A DNA stretch of 64,000 nucleotides. It comes from Cerasicoccus arenae. Lineage in GTDB: Bacteria; Verrucomicrobiota; Verrucomicrobiia; Opitutales; Cerasicoccaceae. Where the stretch lies: the NCBI RefSeq assembly GCF_014651635.1, contig NZ_BMXG01000005.1, positions 1-64,000 on the forward strand, in the 5' to 3' direction. The notes under the pieces were generated by a model. It searched no databases. It had not been told where the DNA came from and saw only the letters and a list, made by a program, of their open reading frames with translations. The translations under genes were made by a program, and so were the position numbers. Positions 568 through 11,988 of the stretch are shown here, in pieces. Within the stretch, counting starts at the first letter, position 1; the number at the start of each line of letters is the position of its first letter.

Positions 568-1257
568 ATGCAGGAGCTAGAGGTTCTGCTCAAGCGTGAG
601 GGCTGGCAAGTTGGCCCCAAACGGGTTTACCGTATCTACAAGGCTGAAGGGCTGGATCTGAAGCGTAAAAAATGCAAAAAGCGCGGTTCCCGTGTTGGCG
701 CTCCATTAGCGCAGGCGGATGCTTCCGGTCAACGCTGGTCGATGGACTTCATTACGGACCAGCTCAACGATGGCAGGCGTTTTCGCGTGCTGACAGTCGT
801 GGATCAGTATGACCGAACATGCCCAGTGCTCTACGTGGACCGGTCCATCACCGCATCCAAAGTTGCTTATGCACTGGACCTGGCTGCCCGCACTGCCGGT
901 GCGCTGCCGCAGGCAATCACCGTTGACAATGGACCTGAGTTTGCTGGCAAAGTGCTCGATGCCTGGGCTTATGCCAATGAGGTTCAGCTTGATTTTATCC
1001 GATCAGGCAAACCAACCGAGAATGGCTATATCGAGTCCTTCAATGGCAAGCTACGCGACGAGCTGCTGAACACTGAGATCTTCTTTTCTCTGCCCGAGAC
1101 CAGGGAAAAGCTTGAAGAATACCGCCTCGATTATAATACCTATAGACCGCACAGCTCCCTGGGCTATCGGCCTCCGACCGAATACGCCCAGCGAGCTGTA
1201 TCCAATAAAACAACCACTCAATCGAAACGGAAAATCCTAGCACTGCCCCTGGCATAA
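568..1257 (+). pseudogene. IS3-family transposase OrfB, 5'-truncated
   Basis: The 229-residue product carries an rve-type integrase core with a complete DDE triad: D60 in the WSMDF motif, D120 in VDNGPEF and E156 in YIESFNGK. D120 and E156 are separated by 35 residues, the classic DD35E spacing of IS3 elements. Full-length OrfB is usually about 270-300 residues and begins with an extra helix-turn-helix region; here the sequence starts inside that region, and no OrfA precedes it. The first ATG is therefore only the first start in the remnant. Catalytic residues survive but the element is incomplete, so self-mobility is unlikely. Confidence 0.85.
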
Positions 1258-1394: not shown

Positions 1395-2510
1395 TCATCC
1401 GCGCATAAAGCTGGTTTCTTCAATAAAGCTAGCCAAGTTCTCGATTGATGCGCTTTTGGCGGTGCGCACAAAATAACCGGCTGATGCGGTGGCGAGCATT
1501 AGCTTATCTTCCAGTGAACACTCGATAAGGCTGCCGAGAATGTATCCGGCATTGAAGCGGTCGCCTGCGCCGGTGGATTTTTTGGGGTTCTCACAGAAGG
1601 GCCCCCATGCCAATGCCGTATTACTGCCATCACATCCCACGGCATAGCGCAGGGAATGGACGATGACTGATTCGATGCCGATATTTGATTTTAATTCGCA
1701 AGCTTGGATGAGAGCCTCTTCGGGGGTCTTTGCCTGTGTGTGGGTTCCATTGGTTAGTCGGCTCAGTACGTTTGTCTCATTCTGGTTCAGGCCCAAAGTG
1801 ACGTGGCAGCATTGGCTAAATTGACTCAAGGCACCAAGCATTTTCTGTATGTCCTCAACCGAGCGACTGGAGGGATCGACTAAATCAAAGAAGATTCTTG
1901 GCTTATGTACGAGTTTTGAAAAAACAACCTCCAGAAGATACTCCCAGCAAGCGGTCATATGTGGGAAAAGAGACCAATTGGTAATGGCAAAGAGAGATGC
2001 TTTTGAGCAATTTTCAAAGAACGCCCCATCTTTTAAGCACAAACTCAGTTTTTCCGGCGTGAATTCTTGCAATTGACTGACGGAGCTGAACATGAGTTTT
2101 CCGTCCGCAAACTCAAATGCTAAAGTCTTTCCGGGAGAATCCCCCCAGCTAACGAGCTGCGCCTTTTGAGCATAATTATTAAAGGCTGAGTGGATGGGCT
2201 CACCTACGGTCGCATAGGTGGATACCGGTATACCAAACTCTGCCAGCCCATCACCAAGGTTGACCGCGCAACCGCCAGGATCGACATTATTGACGACTAT
2301 TTCTCTTAGGCTGCTATGGCCAGCGGCTGCACGTATGACTTCGCCAAACTTATCTATGGTTTCAATACGTTGGTAATCACTAAGCGAATGTCTTTGGCCG
2401 ACAACAGAGATCAGTTCATCAACAAAACCGTCAAATCCAGTGATGACGGATAGATTTTGTAAGCGGCTCTTTTGCTCACGTAAATGCTTGGCTAATTGTG
2501 ATTGGATCAT
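1395..2510 (-). CDS. PfkB-family sugar kinase
   Basis: A 371-residue ribokinase/PfkB-fold protein. The family signature near the C-terminus is clear: STGAGDRFNAGY at about residues 312-323, with D317 as the catalytic base and the GAG anion hole before it. An N-terminal substrate-side glycine pair lies at about residues 78-80. The family phosphorylates sugars or sugar phosphates with ATP. It is the last gene of a four-gene minus-strand operon and starts only 18 bases after an aldolase. By analogy with LacC-LacD, a role as ketose-6-phosphate (for example tagatose-6-phosphate) 1-kinase is attractive, but substrate cannot be read from sequence. Confidence 0.85.
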   Translation of the reverse strand: MIQSQLAKHLREQKSRLQNLSVITGFDGFVDELISVVGQRHSLSDYQRIETIDKFGEVIRAAAGHSSLREIVVNNVDPGGCAVNLGDGLAEFGIPVSTYATVGEPIHSAFNNYAQKAQLVSWGDSPGKTLAFEFADGKLMFSSVSQLQEFTPEKLSLCLKDGAFFENCSKASLFAITNWSLFPHMTACWEYLLEVVFSKLVHKPRIFFDLVDPSSRSVEDIQKMLGALSQFSQCCHVTLGLNQNETNVLSRLTNGTHTQAKTPEEALIQACELKSNIGIESVIVHSLRYAVGCDGSNTALAWGPFCENPKKSTGAGDRFNAGYILGSLIECSLEDKLMLATASAGYFVRTAKSASIENLASFIEETSFMRG

Positions 2511-2528
2511 GTGACGGTTGTCAGGAAA

Positions 2529-3578
2529 TTAGGAGTAACTAAGTGACGTATCGGTGAGCTGTAGGTCGTCTTCAAGTGAACGAGATAGGGGGATGCCCGC
2601 TTTCGTCGTTACATCGTGATAGTAACGAACGGCGTCTTTGGGCGAGAACTCACGATCGGTAACGCGGCGCAGCATTTCGATGAAAATCAAGGGGTTTTCA
2701 GAGAGATTGATTTTGCGGCCAAACAACGCTACTCGCGCCCCATGCTTGCTTGCATCGTGAATCAATTGGAAGGCATCCAAGGTTGTGCCTGAGCTGCCTC
2801 CCAAAATACCGACAACGAGATTGCTATCGTAGCTGACCAGCTCCTCTAGCGGGCCTGGTCCGTTATAAGGAATCTTTAGAAATAAAGGTCGACCGACTTT
2901 AGTGACTCCGGCTAGACAGCGTATAATGCTGTCATTGAGGAAACTACCTGTTTGTTGGGGATCGAAACCTGGGTCTACGTTGGGGTTAAAAACTTCAAGG
3001 AAATATCGAAAATGCTTTTTTTCGGCTTCAATACGAAAATCATGAAAAGCTTCCAGAGCTGCATAATCCCAATCTAAGTTATTCGTGAATGTCACCGAGT
3101 AGAGGCCAAGGTCTGCTCCTAAATGTGGGCGGCCGTAATGAGACTCAAGCTTTCCGTATTTTATATGATCGATGGTGGCTGTTCTAAAATGTCTGGATGG
3201 CTGTTGTGGGTAGCTTCCGCCGCGCACTGCCCAGACATCTGTTGTGTCATTCGCTCGAGCTGCTGGGGTTATGGGGGAATTCTTCAGTAGACCTTCTTCT
3301 ATGCCGAGAACCTCCAGATTGGATGCCGATAAGAGCATGATGTCTACAATCTTTTGATTAATGACATCACGGATTTGAGTTTGGTATTCAGCCAGTGTTT
3401 TGTAGCACTGTTGGGTTCTGTCATAGCCATGGGCACATTTACCTGCACGATTGGGACCAGGTGCCATGATGCCAAAGGCCATGTCTGCATCTTTGGCATC
3501 GGCGATGATGAAATCCTGAAATCTGGTCGAACCGCTTGCGATGCGTTTCAGTTTCTGGTCTAATGTTTTTATCGACAT
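2529..3578 (-). CDS. Class I (Schiff-base) aldolase-like TIM-barrel protein
   Basis: A 349-residue protein resembling the DhnA/LsrF/LacD-type class I aldolases. The segment FLKIPYNG places a likely Schiff-base lysine at K235. A glycine-rich phosphate-binding turn (GILGGSSGTT, about 258-267) and a following ALFGRKI segment (about 286-292) match the C-terminal phosphate site of that fold. No metal-binding histidine set of class II aldolases was seen. It lies between the NagB-like gene (133-base gap) and the PfkB kinase (18-base gap). It probably cleaves a ketose 1,6-bisphosphate or related phosphosugar into triose phosphates; substrate is unknown. Confidence 0.65.
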   Translation of the reverse strand: MSIKTLDQKLKRIASGSTRFQDFIIADAKDADMAFGIMAPGPNRAGKCAHGYDRTQQCYKTLAEYQTQIRDVINQKIVDIMLLSASNLEVLGIEEGLLKNSPITPAARANDTTDVWAVRGGSYPQQPSRHFRTATIDHIKYGKLESHYGRPHLGADLGLYSVTFTNNLDWDYAALEAFHDFRIEAEKKHFRYFLEVFNPNVDPGFDPQQTGSFLNDSIIRCLAGVTKVGRPLFLKIPYNGPGPLEELVSYDSNLVVGILGGSSGTTLDAFQLIHDASKHGARVALFGRKINLSENPLIFIEMLRRVTDREFSPKDAVRYYHDVTTKAGIPLSRSLEDDLQLTDTSLSYS

Positions 3579-3711
3579 CTTGGCTTGTATTGGGGCGAGT
3601 GGTTTTAAGTTCGGGCGGTATTGTTAGTTAGAAGAATGACACTGCAAGTGGCTTGAATGGGCGCTCCATTGATCTTCAATCGACAAGTTTCACCGTTCCA
3701 GTGGTTATGCA

Positions 3712-4650
3712 TCAGTGCATCTCGACTTCTACGCTTCCGATGCCTGAGCGAAGATAGCTGAAGCGGACGTTGTTATGTTTTGCTAAGAGTGACATGGGCA
3801 CAGAGCTGTCGCAAATTCCTTTGGAAATCATAAGTGCAGTTAGCCGAATACCAAATGGATTGTCATGGTGACCAGGATGCCAGATGCTGACGGTTTCCGA
3901 TTTCCAAGTCTCACGGGGGCCAACGGTACAGGCACGTGTTGGAACCATCGAGACGTTGCCTCCGCCGGATGTACGAGCATTTTGCATAATAGTAACTGGG
4001 TGCAGACCGACTACGCGTGTGCCCATCGACAAGTACTGCTCGGGACTTGGAGGGGCATTGCTGAACTCACCCGTTCGGGGTAATGGATCATTGAATGCCC
4101 AATGCTTAATCTCTCCTTGGCCCCCTTGCATGAGAACGCAGCGTACAGCGTCATAACTGTCGGAATATTCCGTTAAGTCGCCACTGGGAAAGTGCTTATT
4201 CGCGTCCAAGAGAGCTAGTTTTGGGCGGATTCGGTCAAAGCACATCTCATTGTCACAGCGAGCAAAGGATAAAGGGTGAGAGACATCGACGGGTTTGTCG
4301 TTAGCGTCGACCCACTCGTCCATTCCCCAGAAATGGGCCTCTTTGCTTTTTAGATTGAGGTCCAGTGCGTTCACCATTTGGGCCACGATTGGCAACTGCT
4401 CTGTTGGCCCGATTGGTCCGCAGATGCCTGTTGGATTGTCAGGTGTTGATTGTTGCCAAGCCGTAATATATTCCAGCGCTTGAGCTGAATAGAATTCTTG
4501 CGGTGTCTCGTAGATGCTAACCGTAAATCCTGGGCGTGAGAGCTGAACAAGATCGTGGGCTGTTAATTTGGCAGCATCGTTAAGTATGTCGGAATCGAGT
4601 GTGGTGTAGTCCCACCAGGCTTCTGCGAGTTTGCTCTTTGGACGGCTCAT
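3712..4650 (-). CDS. Glucosamine-6-phosphate deaminase-like (NagB/6PGL superfamily) isomerase
   Basis: A 312-residue protein with landmarks of the NagB family. GMDEWVD at about 109-115 corresponds to the NMDEY loop carrying the general base, and HWAFNDP with H183 corresponds to the HIAFNEP ring-opening motif. The protein is longer than classical NagB (about 266 residues) and the sequence between the motifs is divergent, so it may act on another hexosamine phosphate. NagB enzymes convert an amino-sugar phosphate into a ketose phosphate plus ammonia. The gene starts only 4 bases after the deacetylase stop, indicating co-transcription and probable sequential action. Confidence 0.75.
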
Positions 4651-4654
4651 AGTA

Positions 4655-5470
4655 TTAGATGCGAGGAGAGTTGGGTGTGGTCGTGCTTATTGGGTAAAAG
4701 TTCTGTGTTAGCAGCATATCTAGAGGATTATATAGGGGGGGGCAAAAACCCAGATGGGAGTGTCGTCTCCAGCCTTCAGCATGGACTACATCGCAATAGT
4801 CGCGGTCTGCCATTTCGCGACTCATGGAGATCATTTCTTCAATATAGGCATCCATCTCTTGCGTTTCTTCGAGCCAGTTCTTTTGGCTTTTATGGCAGTT
4901 CAGCATCTGGCCCTTCGTCGGAATCACAGGCTCTATATCGATGAGGAAGTCTGGTTTAAATAGCTCTCCCAGACCATCACGCAATCCATGTGGCGCAGCA
5001 TGATAGATGCGTACCGAATCGTCATAGGTGGGCTGCTGGGGTGTTGTTCTATGGTTGGGCATTCCTCGGCTAAAGGCAGCCGTGACCACCAGACGGCAGG
5101 CATTCTGGTGATCTTCCATATAGTCATTAGGCGAATGAGTGAGAATGATGCTTGGGCGGATTTCCCGGACAACTGCGCTCACGGCTGCAATTGAATCGCG
5201 ATCATAGAAAATCGACAGGTCGTCGAAGAGTGGGGGATGAGCGATAGCGCCGGCAACTTTTGCCGAATCTTGTGCTTCTCCCCAACGTATGTGGGCGACT
5301 TCATCGCGTGAATGGACCATATCCCCGTAGCAGCCATTGGCTAAATTCCACATATGAATGTCGCAACCGGCCTCTTTGAGCAAAAGTAGAGTGCCGGCGA
5401 AACAGAATTCAATGTCGTCGGGGTGGGCAGCGGCTGCTAGTACTATGGGTTTGGGCTCAATTTTTACCAT
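4655..5470 (-). CDS. PIG-L/LmbE-family N-acetylsugar deacetylase
   Basis: A 271-residue protein opening with the family's AHPDD zinc motif at residues 15-19 (H16 and D19 as ligands) and carrying the second metal site DYMEDH with H121. Family members are zinc-dependent hydrolases that remove the acetyl group from N-acetylglucosamine-type sugars. There is no signal peptide, so it should act in the cytoplasm. It is the first gene of the four-gene operon, reading away from the divergent AraC regulator. Near its C-terminus it contains a C8 run on its coding strand (positions 4735-4742). The exact acetylated substrate is unknown. Confidence 0.85.
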
Positions 5471-5635
5471 TTAGCGCTCATTATAGCAATTTTTTAGGCA
5501 AACGTCTTCCTTTGGCTTGCAAAATAATGATACTCATTTAACACATTGGCTGTATTTTAATGGTCAATTCATACATGTGAATGATAGATATTCTGCAATG
5601 ACATCCCAATTTCGGGTATATTTTCGCTAGGAACT
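5471..5635. promoter_or_regulatory. Divergent intergenic region between deacetylase operon and AraC regulator
   Basis: This 165-base, AT-rich gap separates two divergent start codons and must hold the promoters of both the amino-sugar operon (minus) and the araC-type gene (plus). An AGGA at 5629-5632 sits just before the regulator ATG. No strong sigma-70 pair or clear inverted repeat was recognised. AraC regulators of this layout usually bind direct half-sites in such a gap; that is inference here. Confidence 0.45.
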
Positions 5636-6511
5636 ATGCTCCCCCAGCAACCTAGACTAGAAGTCCTTCCCTCCAGCCAGCATGGAGTAAAGGCAGCTAC
5701 ATTCCACAAGCCTTGCGTTGATTTTCACTGGCATTTTCATCCTGAGGTGGAATTGGTATGGATTGAAAACGGCGAAGGGATCCTCCATGCAGGACGCGCG
5801 ATATATCCTTATCAATCTGGCCAACTAGTCATGCTGGGGGCCAACTTACCACATGCCTACGGTTCTGCACCTAGCCAGAGAACAGGAGCACAATGGTCTG
5901 TTCTGCATTTTCGGCCTCTTATATGGGGTGATGCCTTCTGGAATTTGCCTGAGAATCGTCGGATACGAAATCTCATCGTCCAAGCTGAATGCGGCTATAT
6001 CTTCACTGGTAAAACTGCCAGAGCTTGTGCGGAGTATATTAGACGTATCGAAATACGCGAGCAGAGGGATATGCCTATCGCATTATTACTTCAGTTATTG
6101 GAGGAGTTGGCCGTACAACGAAAGCGCCTTCGCTTGAATCCTAATCCTATCCAAGGCGGAAAGCGGGCTGAACGCGATCTGCGACTGGCCCGTGTTCTAA
6201 AGATGCTTGAGGAGCGCTTGTCGGACTCCACCATGGCCCAAGGAGAAGTTGCGAGTTGGATTCATATGTCTCCCCAGGCATTTAGCCGCTTCTTCCATCG
6301 TCAGAGTGGCCGTACGTTTCATCAACACTTGAATGAGCTTCGAGTAGCCAGCGCCTGCGCTCGGCTTCTTGGAAGCGAAGATTCAATCGCTGAAATTGCA
6401 TTTGGGGCAGGCTTTAACAACCTCTCCAATTTTAATCGTCGTTTCCGCGAAATCACTGGACGTAGTCCGAGGGAATATCGCAAAGATAGGGGAGGGCTTC
6501 TGGGCAAATAA
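5636..6511 (+). CDS. AraC-family transcriptional regulator with cupin sensor domain
   Basis: A 291-residue protein with the usual two-part build. The N-terminal half (about 15-150) has a cupin-type pattern with HWHFHPEVEL near residues 30-40. The C-terminal hundred residues form the double helix-turn-helix of AraC proteins, ending in the signature region IAEIAFGAGF, NLSNFNRRF and SPREYR. AraC proteins with cupin domains usually sense a sugar or related metabolite and activate a neighbouring catabolic operon. The gene is divergent from the deacetylase-led operon and convergent with the beta-helix gene, so the operon is the natural target (inference). Confidence 0.9.
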   Translation: MLPQQPRLEVLPSSQHGVKAATFHKPCVDFHWHFHPEVELVWIENGEGILHAGRAIYPYQSGQLVMLGANLPHAYGSAPSQRTGAQWSVLHFRPLIWGDAFWNLPENRRIRNLIVQAECGYIFTGKTARACAEYIRRIEIREQRDMPIALLLQLLEELAVQRKRLRLNPNPIQGGKRAERDLRLARVLKMLEERLSDSTMAQGEVASWIHMSPQAFSRFFHRQSGRTFHQHLNELRVASACARLLGSEDSIAEIAFGAGFNNLSNFNRRFREITGRSPREYRKDRGGLLGK

Positions 6512-6683: not shown

Positions 6684-8340
6684 TTATTCTGGAGCATATG
6701 CACGTGCGGCGGGACGTGGCCAGTCCGGAGTTATATCGTATCCAGTTTTAAATGGGCCTGGATTGTATTGGGGCGCATTATTGGTGTAGTCCAGATCAGA
6801 TATCGCGGTTACATAGAATCCATCTTCGCCAGTTAGTTTTGGATTTGTGCTAGGCGCGAGCAGAGCATTACTATTAGCGAAAAAAGGCACAGGTTCTGTG
6901 GCAACACCTTCGGGAAGGAGGATGACGTTACTCAGCCACGTCATGTTTGCCAGTCCAGACTCCCAATCCGGTTTGTACCAAAATAGATCGGTCTTAGTAC
7001 GGCCATAAATTAGATTATGCGCATATACTATGCGCATATGATTATCCCAAGGCCGAGATTTAATTATGGTCCATGGCTTCCACCCCAAATTGACATCTCC
7101 GTCGGCAATAATGACGTTGTGATGTACATAGTGAGGTCCCTTCATCAACCAGCCCTCTCGTTTGGCCTGCTCACGATCGACGCCATTTTGCTGGTGCGAT
7201 AGGTAGCCTCTAGAGAAGCCGCTTACTTTATTCTCATAAAAATTAAGATTGGCCCCTGCCTTGCCTTTTACATTGGGCTCGAATTCTACCGCATTGTCGA
7301 AACAGTCATGGTAAATATTATGGTGGATTGTGCTGTCGTCAAATTGCCCTAGGCCGTCTCCATCAAATACACTGTGGATATAGTTATAGCGGGATTCCAG
7401 AAATCGTGGGGCAGGCACTTTCCGTGAATAAACTAGTCCGCCCTCAAGCCCGCGTTCTTTCATTAAAAAATAAATATAGGTCTTAATTTTCATTAATTCT
7501 TCGTTGAAAGTATCTAGTCCAGGGACCGTGAACTCGCACCATTCAACGAGGGTATAGTCTGCATTTGTCATTACGCCATAAGCCGCACCGAGAATGATAC
7601 AATTTCGAATTGTCGCATTGGTGCTAAGCTCGTCGATGCGTATCCCAGTGCTGCGTCCTTGCAAGGTAAAGCCGTCAAAGATTAAACCGGAGGAGTTCTG
7701 TATTTTGACTAGAGGATTTCCAGAAAGCACTAGTTGTAAATCATCCAGATCGAGATCATCCGGTAATTTTAAATATAGGTACGAGTCGTCATACGCCAGC
7801 CCGTAAGGAGGGCCGTTGAAGTATTCTCCACCGCGATGGTAGCCTTCCGTTTTATTGCGTGCATCTTGAAGATCTTTCAATGAGCTGTAGTTATGTAGGT
7901 AGACATCTCCCAGAAAGGCGCAGGCTACTCTCTCCCCTTCGCTGAAATGGTGTCGCCAAAGTCTCGGTTCGATGACTTCCCAGGTGGATTTCAAGGGAGT
8001 TTTTGGTCTTAGGATAGCCTTGCCAGCCTGCTGACTCACAATTCGTGTTGCGTTCCCGAATGTGGAACCAAGATTATTGACTACAAAGTTTTCGCCTTTT
8101 GGCTCGTACGTGCCAGGCAGGAACGACCAATGTATCCCCGGCAGCTAATTTATCCATGGCGTGATCCCAGGTTGCCCAAGCTTTCGATTCGGATAGGCCA
8201 TTCTCTGAGTCACTTCCTCCTTCTGAAAGGTAATAGACAACAGAATGGCCAATTGTCGTGGTCACGTCCACCTGAGCCCAGGTGCATTGGCCGAAAATTA
8301 GAAGGATAGCTAGAGGCAAGCATCGAAATAACATAATCAA
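6684..8340 (-). pseudogene. Secreted right-handed parallel beta-helix protein, disrupted by a frameshift
   Basis: Two minus-strand pieces belong to one gene. The 5' piece (8340-8074) has a signal peptide ending near QCTWAQ and the opening strands typical of secreted beta-helix enzymes (YYLSEGGSDSENG, then GDTLVVPA). The 3' piece (to 6684) holds many beta-helix repeats over 450 residues. The frame joins perfectly if one base, the A at 8115 (T on the coding strand), is removed: VVPA then continues as GTYEPKGENFVV. About 550 residues would result. The reading between the frames shows no other lesion, so the break is recent or a base-call error. Family members are often polysaccharide lyases or hydrolases; substrate is unknown. 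Confidence 0.8.
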
Positions 8341-8489: not shown

Positions 8490-9437
8490 CTAGCGCTTCC
8501 GGCGAAGGAAGAGGATAGGCAGGACGAGTGCGCCGAGTAGCATTGCGTAGGTGGAGGGTTCGGGGATGATGCTTACCGTCCAGGTTGAGCCATTGTCAGT
8601 AATGCCGAAATCATCGAGGATGGAGCCATCTTTGCGAATGAAGTCGTTCGTGATGAGGTTTTGTACGTCGGCAATGTTCGAGTAGTTGGTTTTGCCAAAG
8701 GTGAGGGAGCCGAGAGCGTCGTTGAAGAGCACGTATTGGCCGGCGCGGTCTGTCCAGTCGTCGGACATCTCGGTGACGCTGAGTGTGCCTCCAACTGCGG
8801 TGCCAGTTGAGCCGATGATTACGCGGCCGATCGGGTCTGGGTCCAAGTTCGTCGTATTCGCCCAATCAAAGGTAGCGGCGCTTAAGGAGCCGCCGAGGAC
8901 ATTGATTGTCCAGCCCCCAGTCGCGTGACCGCTGGTGCTGGGCGAAAGTCGACCTTGGAAGATGTTGGTGCTCACGAGGCTGCCGCCGAAAATGCTCATG
9001 CTGGCAGATGAGCTGGAGGTGTTATTGGTGTTACCGATATTGAGCGTTCCATCAATGTTGAGCGTGGCTGTGGTGGCTCCGCCATCGACACCGATCTGGC
9101 TGTTGACGCTGCTGCTGGAACCGCCGCCAGTGAAGGACGTGAAGTCTCCGGAGATCGTGAGGGTGCCGTTGGTAAGGGAAAGGCCGTCGTCCGAGGTGCC
9201 AATGATGTCGTTGAAGAAAACGCTGCCGGTCTTGGAGACGCTGTCGCCGTTGTTGATGATGACCTTGTCATTGGCTGCGGGGATACCGGTAGGGTCCCAG
9301 TTCTCGGGTGTGTCCCAGTCCCCGTCTGTGGAACCATTGTCCCAGGTGACGACGGCGGCATGCGCGCTGAGTGAAACGAGAAGAATCGATGCCAATGCAG
9401 CGATGGCTGAATTGCTTTTTAAGATAGGGTTTTTCAT
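8490..9437 (-). CDS. PEP-CTERM-anchored secreted protein with autotransporter-like repeats
   Basis: A 315-residue exported protein. It starts with a signal peptide (about 1-27, ending SLSAHA). Next come a WDNGSTDGDWDTPENWDP segment and glycine/serine/threonine-rich repeats (GTLTISG, ATLNIDGTLNIGN), as in pectate-lyase-like or autotransporter-associated beta-strand proteins. The tail is a full PEP-CTERM signal: IPEPSTYAMLLG, a hydrophobic helix, and terminal RRKR. Exosortase systems cleave such tails and place the protein at the surface or in the matrix. It is a surface protein of unknown function, monocistronic with its own terminator, within the polysaccharide locus. Confidence 0.85.
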   Translation of the reverse strand: MKNPILKSNSAIAALASILLVSLSAHAAVVTWDNGSTDGDWDTPENWDPTGIPAANDKVIINNGDSVSKTGSVFFNDIIGTSDDGLSLTNGTLTISGDFTSFTGGGSSSSVNSQIGVDGGATTATLNIDGTLNIGNTNNTSSSSASMSIFGGSLVSTNIFQGRLSPSTSGHATGGWTINVLGGSLSAATFDWANTTNLDPDPIGRVIIGSTGTAVGGTLSVTEMSDDWTDRAGQYVLFNDALGSLTFGKTNYSNIADVQNLITNDFIRKDGSILDDFGITDNGSTWTVSIIPEPSTYAMLLGALVLPILFLRRKR

Positions 9438-9807
9438 GGGCTTTCTTGGTCGGTTGTGGGGGATGTTTATTTATTAATAGGGTTGTCGAAGCCAGTATTG
9501 GTATGGATTCAACGGCAATTGGCTTGAAGACGTGTGTAGGTAATCGGATAAAATTCTATATAGGGAAATTTTATGGGCAATTGCTTCGTCACTGAAATGG
9601 TTTAGTAGCATTCAGATTTATAGACAACCAAGCCTTGCAGGGTAGGGAGATGATCAGTTCATTCTTTAATAAATATTAGTTGAGGCTTGACTGCATCCTC
9701 GGGCGATTCTATGCGTGAAAACTGTCTCATTTGCCGCTGTATCGTTTACCCAGCCACACCCCTTTGTGTTGGTAGATTCAAGCTAACCCCAAAACTACCC
9801 TGTAAAA
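9438..9807. other. 370-base divergent intergenic region
   Basis: This AT-rich gap separates the PEP-CTERM gene (minus) and the PL6 lyase (plus) and must contain both promoters. No ORF, RNA gene, obvious operator palindrome or hairpin was recognised. A TTGACT at 9687-9692 has only a poorly spaced AT-rich partner, so no promoter is claimed. Confidence 0.4.
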
Positions 9808-11988
9808 ATGAATGTATCCATGATTATGGATCGGCATTGCCCTAGCACGATGTCGTCTCCTTCGATACGCCGAAACCGTATCTTAAAATCGCTTCTTCGA
9901 AGCTGCCTCGCGATCTCAATGGTGAGTTTTATCACGCAAGCACGTGCCGCCACCTACACCGTTAGCTCGGCAGCGGACGTCGCTGATCGGCTCGATGGTA
10001 CGGATAGCCCGCAGGCTGTTTATGGCGATGAGTTGGTATGGTCTGATGGCACCTACGCCAGTCAAGGAATCATGTTGGCAGGTGTTGATGGCATTACTCT
10101 TCGGGCAGAAACGCCGGGTGGTGTGATTCTAACTGGCGATAGTTATCTGCGAATTGGCAGCGATGATAGCACGTTCAGCGGATTTGAATTCCAGATTGAC
10201 GACCCGGTTGATCCGGCAGCGCCGAATGCGCTATATTATCTGACCGACCTGATCCGATTTCGGGCCGAGGACAATGATGACCATGCCTATAACTCGCGCG
10301 TCAGCAATTGCCGCGTAGTGGACTTGCGCACGGGTACCTCTTATCTTGGCGGTCACCATTGGGTCATGTTCTATGGGCGCGGCAACCAGGTTGATAACTG
10401 CTCTTTTATCGGAAAACGAAGTGAGAAATCGTTAATAGTTATTACCCATTATGTGGAAACTGGTGGTAGTGATCGAGGCGGGGAACACACGATTATCAAT
10501 AACTATTTTGGTGACCGCCCCACGCTCAACCCTGCTGATTCCAACGACAACGAATGGGAAATTATCCGCCTGGGCGACAGCAGCTCGGTGTGCTTGGATA
10601 CAGCTACCATCGTGGCGGATAATCTTTTTGAGGAATGTGACGGCGAGCTGGAAACGGTTTCCAATAAATCATCGGGCAATTTTATCCTCGGTAATACCTT
10701 TCGCGACACCGAGGGGCAAATCACGATTCGACAGGGCGAGAATTGCCTGATCGAGGGCAACTATTTCCTTGGCACGGGTAGTTCTTATGAAGGTGGCATC
10801 CGCGTGACTGGCGATGGTCACACCGTCATCAACAACTACTTCGAAGCGCTGAACGGCACGGGCAAACGGGCGGCAATCTCGCTTGTGGCGGGCCAACTGA
10901 ACTGGGATCCCGGCGATGACTGCATTTCCGTCAGCGGTTACCGTCCCGTTACCAACACTCTGATTGGCCATAACACCATCGTGAACTGCAAGCGCCCTTT
11001 TGAATTTGGTGCAGACTCATCCGGCACGCGAAATCAGGCCCCGAGCAGCGTCTCATTGTCCAACAACGCGGTTTACAGCACCGGCTCGAATTCGATCCTG
11101 ACCTACAGTCAGACGGGCTCCAGTATCGCTTATTCTGGTAATGTGTTCTACCATACCTCTGGCACGAGCAAGCTCTTCAGTGGCGTCTCACCCAGCTACA
11201 CGAGCACACAGATTCTCTTTGATAATCCTGACTTGGCAGATGACGCGACTTACGGTTTTTATCGGCCAACGAGTGGCAGTCCGTTGGAGAACGCGGCTCA
11301 GGCAACTGTCAGCGCCGCGGCACTGGACATCTTGGGCAATGACCGTCTAGCGTCGAACCGAGATGTTGGCGCGGAAGAATATTGGGGTGCGACCGTTACC
11401 GGAGCAAATTTACGTCCGCTCGTTGCCAGTGATGTGGGTTGTACTTGGGGCCCCGATGCTGGTCCCGGTCCAGCCAACCCGCAAACAGTTGTGCTCAATC
11501 CAGTCGACGATAGTTACGTCCGCGGCGGTATTCATGCGGGAACGAACTTCGGTGCCAGTGATATGAATTCGCTCAAGGTCGAAATCTCCACCGTCAGCGA
11601 CTATGACAAGCGTGCGTATCTAAAATACAACCTGAGCAGCGTCACGGGGACAGTCACCAGCGCCACATTCCGCATTAAGATTGAGAGCATGGACAGTGGT
11701 GCGAAGAACAACTTGCGCCCCGTAGTCGATGACAGCTGGGGCGAGTATAGCATTACCTGGAGTAATAAGCCTGCTTATGGATCTTCCATGGGAACCATCA
11801 CACTGCCCGGCGATGAGCAATGGATGGAATGGGATGTCACGTCGTTTATCGCCGCGGAAGCGGCGGGCGATGGAGCTGCATCGTTCTGCATTCTACCTCT
11901 ATCAACGACGACCTACCTCAACGCGTATTATTACTCAGCCGAGGCCTCAAGCGGCAATCGGCCGGAATTAGTCGTTACTTACGAATAA
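9808..11988 (+). CDS. Secreted polysaccharide lyase family 6 (alginate lyase/chondroitinase B type) with C-terminal DNRLRE/CBM96 domain
   Basis: A 726-residue exported enzyme. An N-terminal export signal ends near FITQARA (about residue 48); translation may begin at M15 rather than M1. Residues about 50-500 form a parallel beta-helix with PL6 landmarks: HHWVMFYGRGNQVDNCSF, EIIRLGDSSS, ELETVSNKS with the acidic calcium ligands and the Bronsted-base lysine, and ITIRQGENC with the catalytic arginine. Residues about 560-726 match the DNRLRE domain (CBM96), known to bind alginate. PL6 enzymes eliminate across uronic-acid linkages of alginate or dermatan sulfate. The catalytic residues appear intact. 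The nearby amino-sugar operon keeps a glycosaminoglycan-like substrate possible. Confidence 0.85.
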   Translation: MNVSMIMDRHCPSTMSSPSIRRNRILKSLLRSCLAISMVSFITQARAATYTVSSAADVADRLDGTDSPQAVYGDELVWSDGTYASQGIMLAGVDGITLRAETPGGVILTGDSYLRIGSDDSTFSGFEFQIDDPVDPAAPNALYYLTDLIRFRAEDNDDHAYNSRVSNCRVVDLRTGTSYLGGHHWVMFYGRGNQVDNCSFIGKRSEKSLIVITHYVETGGSDRGGEHTIINNYFGDRPTLNPADSNDNEWEIIRLGDSSSVCLDTATIVADNLFEECDGELETVSNKSSGNFILGNTFRDTEGQITIRQGENCLIEGNYFLGTGSSYEGGIRVTGDGHTVINNYFEALNGTGKRAAISLVAGQLNWDPGDDCISVSGYRPVTNTLIGHNTIVNCKRPFEFGADSSGTRNQAPSSVSLSNNAVYSTGSNSILTYSQTGSSIAYSGNVFYHTSGTSKLFSGVSPSYTSTQILFDNPDLADDATYGFYRPTSGSPLENAAQATVSAAALDILGNDRLASNRDVGAEEYWGATVTGANLRPLVASDVGCTWGPDAGPGPANPQTVVLNPVDDSYVRGGIHAGTNFGASDMNSLKVEISTVSDYDKRAYLKYNLSSVTGTVTSATFRIKIESMDSGAKNNLRPVVDDSWGEYSITWSNKPAYGSSMGTITLPGDEQWMEWDVTSFIAAEAAGDGAASFCILPLSTTTYLNAYYYSAEASSGNRPELVVTYE

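Follow-up and report, generated by a model that had tools for sequence, protein, structure and literature searches.

In the archaeal route of chitin breakdown, diacetylchitobiose is deacetylated by an enzyme of the PIG-L family, and glucosamine (GlcN) is phosphorylated before it is deaminated. The Aga pathway for N-acetylgalactosamine (GalNAc) proceeds, according to one account, through AgaA, AgaS, LacC or AgaZ, and a LacD-type aldolase, with AgaI – a galactosamine-6-phosphate isomerase that E. coli also has – in an auxiliary role (PMC12118421). In a second account, haloarchaeal ketohexokinase yields fructose-1-phosphate from free fructose in vivo, and in Haloarcula hispanica this product is phosphorylated again by 1-phosphofructokinase and then cleaved as fructose-1,6-bisphosphate (PMC11519228), while a third reports long NagB proteins with a C-terminal extension of about 500 amino acids (PMC1484493). 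Here we describe a four-gene operon of Cerasicoccus arenae that combines a PIG-L deacetylase, a NagB-fold protein, an aldolase and a ketohexokinase-type kinase. It lies in positions 1 to 64,000 of contig NZ_BMXG01000005.1, a stretch of 64,000 nucleotides hereafter called the window, from an assembly that is 97.6% complete.

We propose – as a call just short of even – that this operon degrades a free N-acetylated amino sugar, taking the hexosamine by way of a ketohexose and a ketose-1-phosphate to dihydroxyacetone phosphate (DHAP) and glyceraldehyde. The substrate, the free state of the sugar, the order of steps and the position of phosphorylation at C1 are inferred from what was observed of the genes and their families, of folds and conserved residues, and of gene neighbourhoods, the order following from a reading of aldolase and kinase as a ketose-1-phosphate module with an exchangeable front end. 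Most likely the substrate would be an unphosphorylated 2-acetamido hexose, such as GalNAc or N-acetylglucosamine (GlcNAc). The PIG-L protein would take off the acetyl group; the NagB-fold enzyme would open, isomerise and deaminate the amino sugar, giving a free 2-ketohexose (tagatose or fructose) and ammonia; the Khk-family kinase would place a phosphate on C1 of the ketose; and the LsrF-type aldolase, working by way of a lysine Schiff base, would cleave the ketose-1-phosphate to DHAP plus an aldehyde, which would be glyceraldehyde or, with a 6-deoxy sugar, lactaldehyde. The four genes are, in order of transcription:

4655..5470, minus strand: gene 1, PIG-L/LmbE-type zinc deacetylase, 271 amino acids (PF02585); proposed N-acetylhexosamine deacetylase
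3712..4650, minus strand: gene 2, NagB-fold protein resembling amino-sugar deaminases/isomerases, 312 amino acids (predicted fold)
2529..3578, minus strand: gene 3, putative DhnA/LsrF-type class I aldolase, 349 amino acids; proposed ketose-1-phosphate aldolase with K235 as proposed Schiff-base lysine
1395..2510, minus strand: gene 4, Khk-family (prokaryotic ketohexokinase) sugar kinase, 371 amino acids (PF25270; GAGD at 314–317)

Intergenic gaps of 4, 133 and 18 nucleotides fit a single operon, and a further 165 nucleotides separate gene 1 from the start of a divergent AraC-type gene. A preliminary description of the locus had given these four open reading frames (ORFs), their coordinates and order and the divergent gene, all of which an ORF check confirmed; the residues it had singled out (D111 and H183 in gene 2, K235 in gene 3, GAGD in gene 4) are likewise present and conserved, as detailed below. 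Its idea that the deacetylase and deaminase probably form one catabolic unit with the kinase and the class I aldolase is supported, and related sets recur elsewhere.

The kinase belongs to the Pfam family Khk, "Prokaryotic ketohexokinase" (PF25270; E 9.1e-48, 163.7 bits, cut-off 35), and also matches PF00294 at E 3.6e-6; its GAGD motif is kept in 15 of 15 relatives. The LacC label that had been given to it was abandoned, Pfam placing it in Khk and no LacC model in NCBIfam matching at E ≤ 1. Khk was found in three of 14 control genomes, Haloferax volcanii included, and over the cut-off in one of the 14, which is not named. A second Khk paralogue of the source genome (L214, at G000:C6:17959-19014), 34% identical to gene 4, is perhaps a general fructose kinase, and many genomes of the order carry a similarly distant Khk. 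The kinase family bears on the main rival to our proposal, a route over 6-phosphates that we consider unlikely: GalNAc- or GlcNAc-6-phosphate would be deacetylated, deaminated to tagatose- or fructose-6-phosphate and phosphorylated at C1, and the 1,6-bisphosphate would be cleaved into two triose phosphates. A Khk-family enzyme with no LacC model among its matches argues against such a route.

Pfam offers nothing for gene 3 at E ≤ 1, and NCBIfam gives weak matches. With a profile of 20 sequences, two designed TIM barrels score best (E 7e-4) and LsrF comes after them at E 0.0037, its alignment running through the C-terminal GG and GR phosphate motifs; K235, invariant in 20 of the 20 aligned sequences, was equated by eye with what we take to be the Schiff-base lysine of LsrF. 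A Foldseek search with the weak predicted model (predicted local distance difference test score, pLDDT, 62) is headed by LsrF (1.4e-6) and ADH synthase (1.6e-6), with template-modelling (TM) scores of about 0.5. Archaeal fructose-bisphosphate aldolase and LacD-type tagatose-bisphosphate aldolases follow lower in the same list, so that the LacD-like label proposed earlier survives among the more distant matches of a weak model and has yielded to LsrF and ADH synthase as the nearer ones; the presence of bisphosphate aldolases among these matches speaks for the 6-phosphate route.

The genomic company of this aldolase fits a free ketose. In a phylum sample of 387 genomes, a threshold of E ≤ 1e-80 yields 23 verrucomicrobial copies of the family, spread over 20 genomes (40 genomes match at E ≤ 0.001), and all 23 were inspected, 22 in fetched stretches and one in the window. 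A D-lyxose isomerase gene stands by the aldolase in nine of them (L175, L176, L178, L181, L182, L183, L184, L185 and L189), 12 have a Khk or PfkB kinase no further than about 2.3 kb away, and two have a NagB-like gene near. At L175 the isomerase is one gene off, an aldehyde dehydrogenase standing in between, with DeoR and DUF4432 among the further neighbours. The Pfam family Lyx_isomer was assigned in all six isomerase proteins scanned (those of L175, L176, L181, L184, L189 and L083); that of L175 falls under the cut-off of the NCBIfam model named for D-lyxose isomerase. D-lyxose and D-mannose isomerases take free aldoses. In the window, and at L031 and L171, PIG-L and NagB-like genes precede aldolase and Khk in place of the isomerase.

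The simplest reading is that aldolase and kinase form a module – ketose to ketose-1-phosphate to DHAP and aldehyde – behind an exchangeable ketose-forming front end, either an isomerase or the PIG-L/NagB-like pair. The occurrence of the aldolase with D-lyxose isomerase, and once with aldehyde dehydrogenase, fits a back end for free ketoses and ketose-1-phosphates; the earlier view that every step acts on sugar 6-phosphates is not borne out, and the neighbouring isomerase family, named for free aldoses, likewise counts against the 6-phosphate route. In the aldolase tree, where duplicate rows (L141, L142, L144, L149, L153 and L215) were left uncounted and in no group, the NagB-linked label needs at least two changes, whether gains or losses.

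For the front end, Pfam assigns gene 1 to the PIG-L family (PF02585; E 6.6e-20, 72.4 bits, cut-off 28.2), and H16, D18, D19 and E21 are the same in all 56 relatives aligned there, as is H121 in all 57 at its position. Bacillithiol deacetylases are its top NCBIfam models (BshB1 at 92.2 bits, under the cut-off of 182.5), and its relatives in the PDB include BshB and diacetylchitobiose deacetylase. Bacillithiol and diacetylchitobiose deacetylases work on unphosphorylated GlcNAc moieties.

Gene 2 likewise goes unmatched in Pfam at E ≤ 1, and its 23.1 bits against the curated NagB model of NCBIfam, TIGR00502, lie far under the cut-off of 236.9. Its predicted fold is nonetheless that of NagB: a family profile (45 sequences) finds solved glucosamine-6-phosphate deaminases at E 2.4e-5, and the AlphaFold2 (AF2) model (pLDDT 90.6) matches E. 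coli NagB (1dea) with Z 25.1 and a root-mean-square deviation of 2.7 over 237 residues, and 2bkv with Z 26.1. Thus, of the family calls made earlier from motifs, PIG-L and PfkB-type kinase stand in Pfam, whereas NagB-like protein and aldolase have no Pfam match and are backed by profile and fold, weakly so for the aldolase.

Residues were compared with E. coli NagB in 107 distinct family sequences, one row with a stop (L041) having been dropped. D111 and H183, at the positions of NagB D72 and H143, which we take to be catalytic, are kept in all 107. At the positions of D141 and E148, presumably beside the histidine, the 107 sequences have I, V or T and D, respectively. Of the positions that we assume to form the phosphate site (T41, R172 and K208), the first is I or V and the last aligns to D in all 107; the genome's own canonical NagB domain retains T and K there. 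These two altered positions argue against a 6-phosphate substrate, in whose favour stand the retained fold and the residues corresponding to D72, H143 and R172. The family also has an invariant H217, an invariant HDN stretch (H262, D263 and N264) and an invariant C-terminal H312, which may belong to an additional site for a metal or a substrate; H312 has a pLDDT below 50 in the model.

That canonical NagB domain belongs to the fusion PRK02122 (NF002557; 811.6 bits, 634 amino acids; L213 376-2280, G000:C2:78218-78940 and flanks), where both the ATGSTP loop and the lysine are retained; it scores 107.5 bits against the NCBIfam AgaI model, under the cut-off of 271. Judged by these residues, the genome holds one putatively phosphate-type NagB and one altered NagB. 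The PIG-L half of the fusion reads SSEPTDD in place of HPDD, and its deacetylase site looks degenerate. The preliminary description had every step of the Aga pathway served here by a different family, which is overstated: PIG-L and NagB were already known together in this fusion, and E. coli has its auxiliary AgaI, which we take to be a NagB family member.

Elsewhere in the genome, no canonical NagA exceeds the cut-off (best 19.3 bits), an EII-Sor phosphotransferase system (PTS) was not found, and the single PTS_EIIC is of the fructose type; its presence disposes of a reading that the genome has no PTS. Together these results are compatible with uptake of a free amino sugar, without proving it, and the PTS inventory tells against the 6-phosphate route. 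The one ROK-family match in the genome could, to judge from its family, be a sugar-6-kinase, which would favour that route.

The gene 2 family is widespread and tightly conserved. It occurs in 111 of the 387 genomes at E ≤ 1e-100, and in 149 at E ≤ 0.001 when distant paralogues and fragments are counted; the full-length members found are 61–87% identical to the window protein in the alignment (the nearest named relative, from Cerasicoccus frondis, at 87%), and mean column identity is 77% over 45 chosen sequences. Its neighbourhoods were surveyed in the most similar 80 of 582 loci, many from metagenome bins, with counts from tblastn placement and an ORF map (in which 16 of the 80 loci lack a NagB ORF) used for order and neighbour choice alone. 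The titles of these loci name Verrucomicrobia, Planctomycetota, Kiritimatiellota, Lentisphaerae, Armatimonadota, Chloroflexi and others. We tentatively suggest, and would lean somewhat against rather than for it, that this Pfam-unmatched NagB-fold family deaminates free amino sugars, and so serves a phosphate-free route from N-acetylhexosamine to ketohexose in several phyla, here by way of a Khk-type ketose-1-phosphate branch.

The four gene types, the kinase being of Khk type, were seen together at three loci – the window, L031 (Cerasicoccus) and L171, a genome of the same family with the order PIG-L, NagB-like, GFO_IDH_MocA protein, aldolase, Khk. The complete set is thus rare, its joint conservation being confined to these three among the loci seen. 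Planctomycete loci carry the aldolase and another PfkB kinase after the NagB-like gene, once as a fusion: L058 (Adhaeretor mobilis) has PIG-L, NagB-like and then a 762-amino-acid LsrF-type aldolase–PfkB fusion at 9005-11293, while L083 and L087 have the order NagB-like, PfkB, aldolase, with a partial PIG-L match ahead of the NagB-like gene in L087 and none in L083. At L031, Khk is followed by two 281-amino-acid proteins without a Pfam match and then by a further PfkB kinase; the sole homologue of the first in the source genome is 30% identical, on contig C24. A Pfam scan of ten neighbours at L197, L198, L171 and L031 did not point clearly to any substrate.

These recurrences count against mere adjacency. 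That two independent modules are neighbours by chance, one (PIG-L/NagB-like) for some glycoside or amino sugar and the other (aldolase/Khk) for a different ketose, would account for each pair mostly occurring without the other, and is in our judgement the least probable of the alternatives: the association recurs in two phyla, including an aldolase–kinase fusion directly after the NagB-like gene. Co-location of gene 2 and the aldolase within 3 kb, expected about 0.12 times if each 4 Mb genome has one aldolase, was seen four times among the 80 loci, in three lineages: L031, L058, and the close kin L083 and L087, whose NagB-like proteins are 92% identical.

Several observations weigh against the proposed route over a free ketose and its 1-phosphate. 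Among the 80 loci, the aldolase lies within 3 kb of gene 2 in just four (L031, L058, L083 and L087) and Khk within 8 kb in just two (L031 and L037). Of the 55 loci with at least 1.5 kb of flank on both sides, 34 carry a same-strand PIG-L gene no more than 1.5 kb from gene 2 (upstream in 32), and the most frequent neighbour family is GFO_IDH_MocA, with 21 of the 124 proteins scanned from 227 candidates. The scarcity of aldolase and Khk fits a free ketose passed to general kinases; it would fit equally well fructose-6-phosphate entering glycolysis. The kinases of L058, L083 and L087 are PfkB rather than Khk, and the second PfkB kinase of L031, about 1.9 kb past Khk, could by analogy with Haloarcula yield a 1,6-bisphosphate, making a bisphosphate route possible there. 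The window operon has no aldehyde dehydrogenase, an enzyme that the 6-phosphate route would not need, and the model of gene 3 is poor. In gene 2, the change at D141 marks no new substrate, since the canonical fusion also has T there. The phosphate-site arginine R172 is retained as R226 in all 107 sequences, and an invariant R269, six residues past D263 in the 45-sequence family alignment, could on positional grounds stand in for K208, itself placed by sequence alignment at about 20% identity; a C6 anion may therefore still bind.

The invariance of R226 and R269, while the T41 and K208 positions change, also suits a further alternative, which we regard as improbable: the same chemistry on an acetamido sugar that cannot be phosphorylated at C6, whether 6-deoxy (N-acetylquinovosamine, QuiNAc, or N-acetylfucosamine, FucNAc), 6-sulfated or uronic, R226 holding the C6 anion in the latter two. 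Pathways for 6-deoxy sugars usually combine a C1 kinase with an aldolase, and a sulfohexulose-1-phosphate aldolase stands at rank 40 of the gene 3 Foldseek list. Against it, a scan covering eight window proteins around the operon showed no sulfatase or deoxysugar enzyme, and the wide spread of the gene 2 family suggests a common sugar.

The free-sugar operon that we propose is flanked by the following features:

5636..6511, plus strand: AraC-family regulator, divergent (Pfam HTH_18 E 1.3e-22, AraC_binding E 9.6e-9)
5471..5635, no strand: region of 165 nucleotides between operon and regulator, by ORF borders; presumed home of both promoters
568..1257, plus strand: IS3-type transposase (rve) ORF past the 3′ end of the operon, close to the contig start (PF13683 E 7.1e-27, PF00665 E 5.2e-18)

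The AraC protein probably controls the four-gene unit; a homologous divergent gene occurs at four of the 80 gene 2 loci (L031, L032, L034 and L051) and was seen also at L198. A promoter scan found two sigma-70-like sites on the minus strand between 5609 and 5554, such sites being no commoner in the whole region than in shuffled sequence; a terminator scan likewise gave no excess over shuffled sequence, and the sole inverted repeat between operon and regulator has arms of 9 nucleotides. On the other side, 1.4 kb are visible past the 3′ end, what lies further downstream being out of reach because the window opens at contig base 1, with the transposase at 568–1257. Near the operon, the window also encodes a right-handed beta-helix protein (6684-8039), a protein whose C-terminus resembles, by eye, a PEP-CTERM sorting signal (8490-9437) and a chondroitinase-B-type lyase with CBM96 (9808-11988; PF14592, PF24517), a possible pointer to a polysaccharide source, though nothing links it to the operon.

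If the proposal holds, part of the amino-sugar catabolism of Verrucomicrobiota, Planctomycetota and their relatives runs through free ketoses and ketose-1-phosphates, and annotation restricted to NagA, NagB and AgaS overlooks it; a NagB-fold family whose window member matches no Pfam model would gain a testable substrate hypothesis. A literature search, with most subscription journals outside its reach, found no publication on this gene set.

Set beside the systems described at the outset, the operon would be a variant of a known pathway type, with phosphorylation coming only after a free keto-sugar has formed – an order unlike that of the textbook route. With the Aga pathway it would share deacetylation, deamination–isomerisation, C1 phosphorylation and aldol cleavage, and it differs in the families of its deacetylase, deaminase and kinase (the last of Khk type) and in proposed substrates that carry no 6-phosphate. 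As in PRK02122, NagB and PIG-L domains come as a pair, albeit as two genes, with a NagB-like protein too distant for the curated NagB model and a PIG-L protein that keeps the HPDD...DH motif partly lost in the fusion. The Haloarcula hispanica ketohexokinase route for mannitol and sorbitol phosphorylates a free ketose at C1, as is proposed here, with a kinase probably of the same Pfam family; no second kinase follows gene 4 in the 1.4 kb past it, unlike in that route, whereas L031 has one. With the archaeal chitin route, finally, the operon shares a PIG-L deacetylase, whose amino-sugar substrate would here too be unphosphorylated – PDB entries of diacetylchitobiose deacetylase match gene 1 – and departs from it in order, GlcN phosphorylation there coming ahead of deamination.

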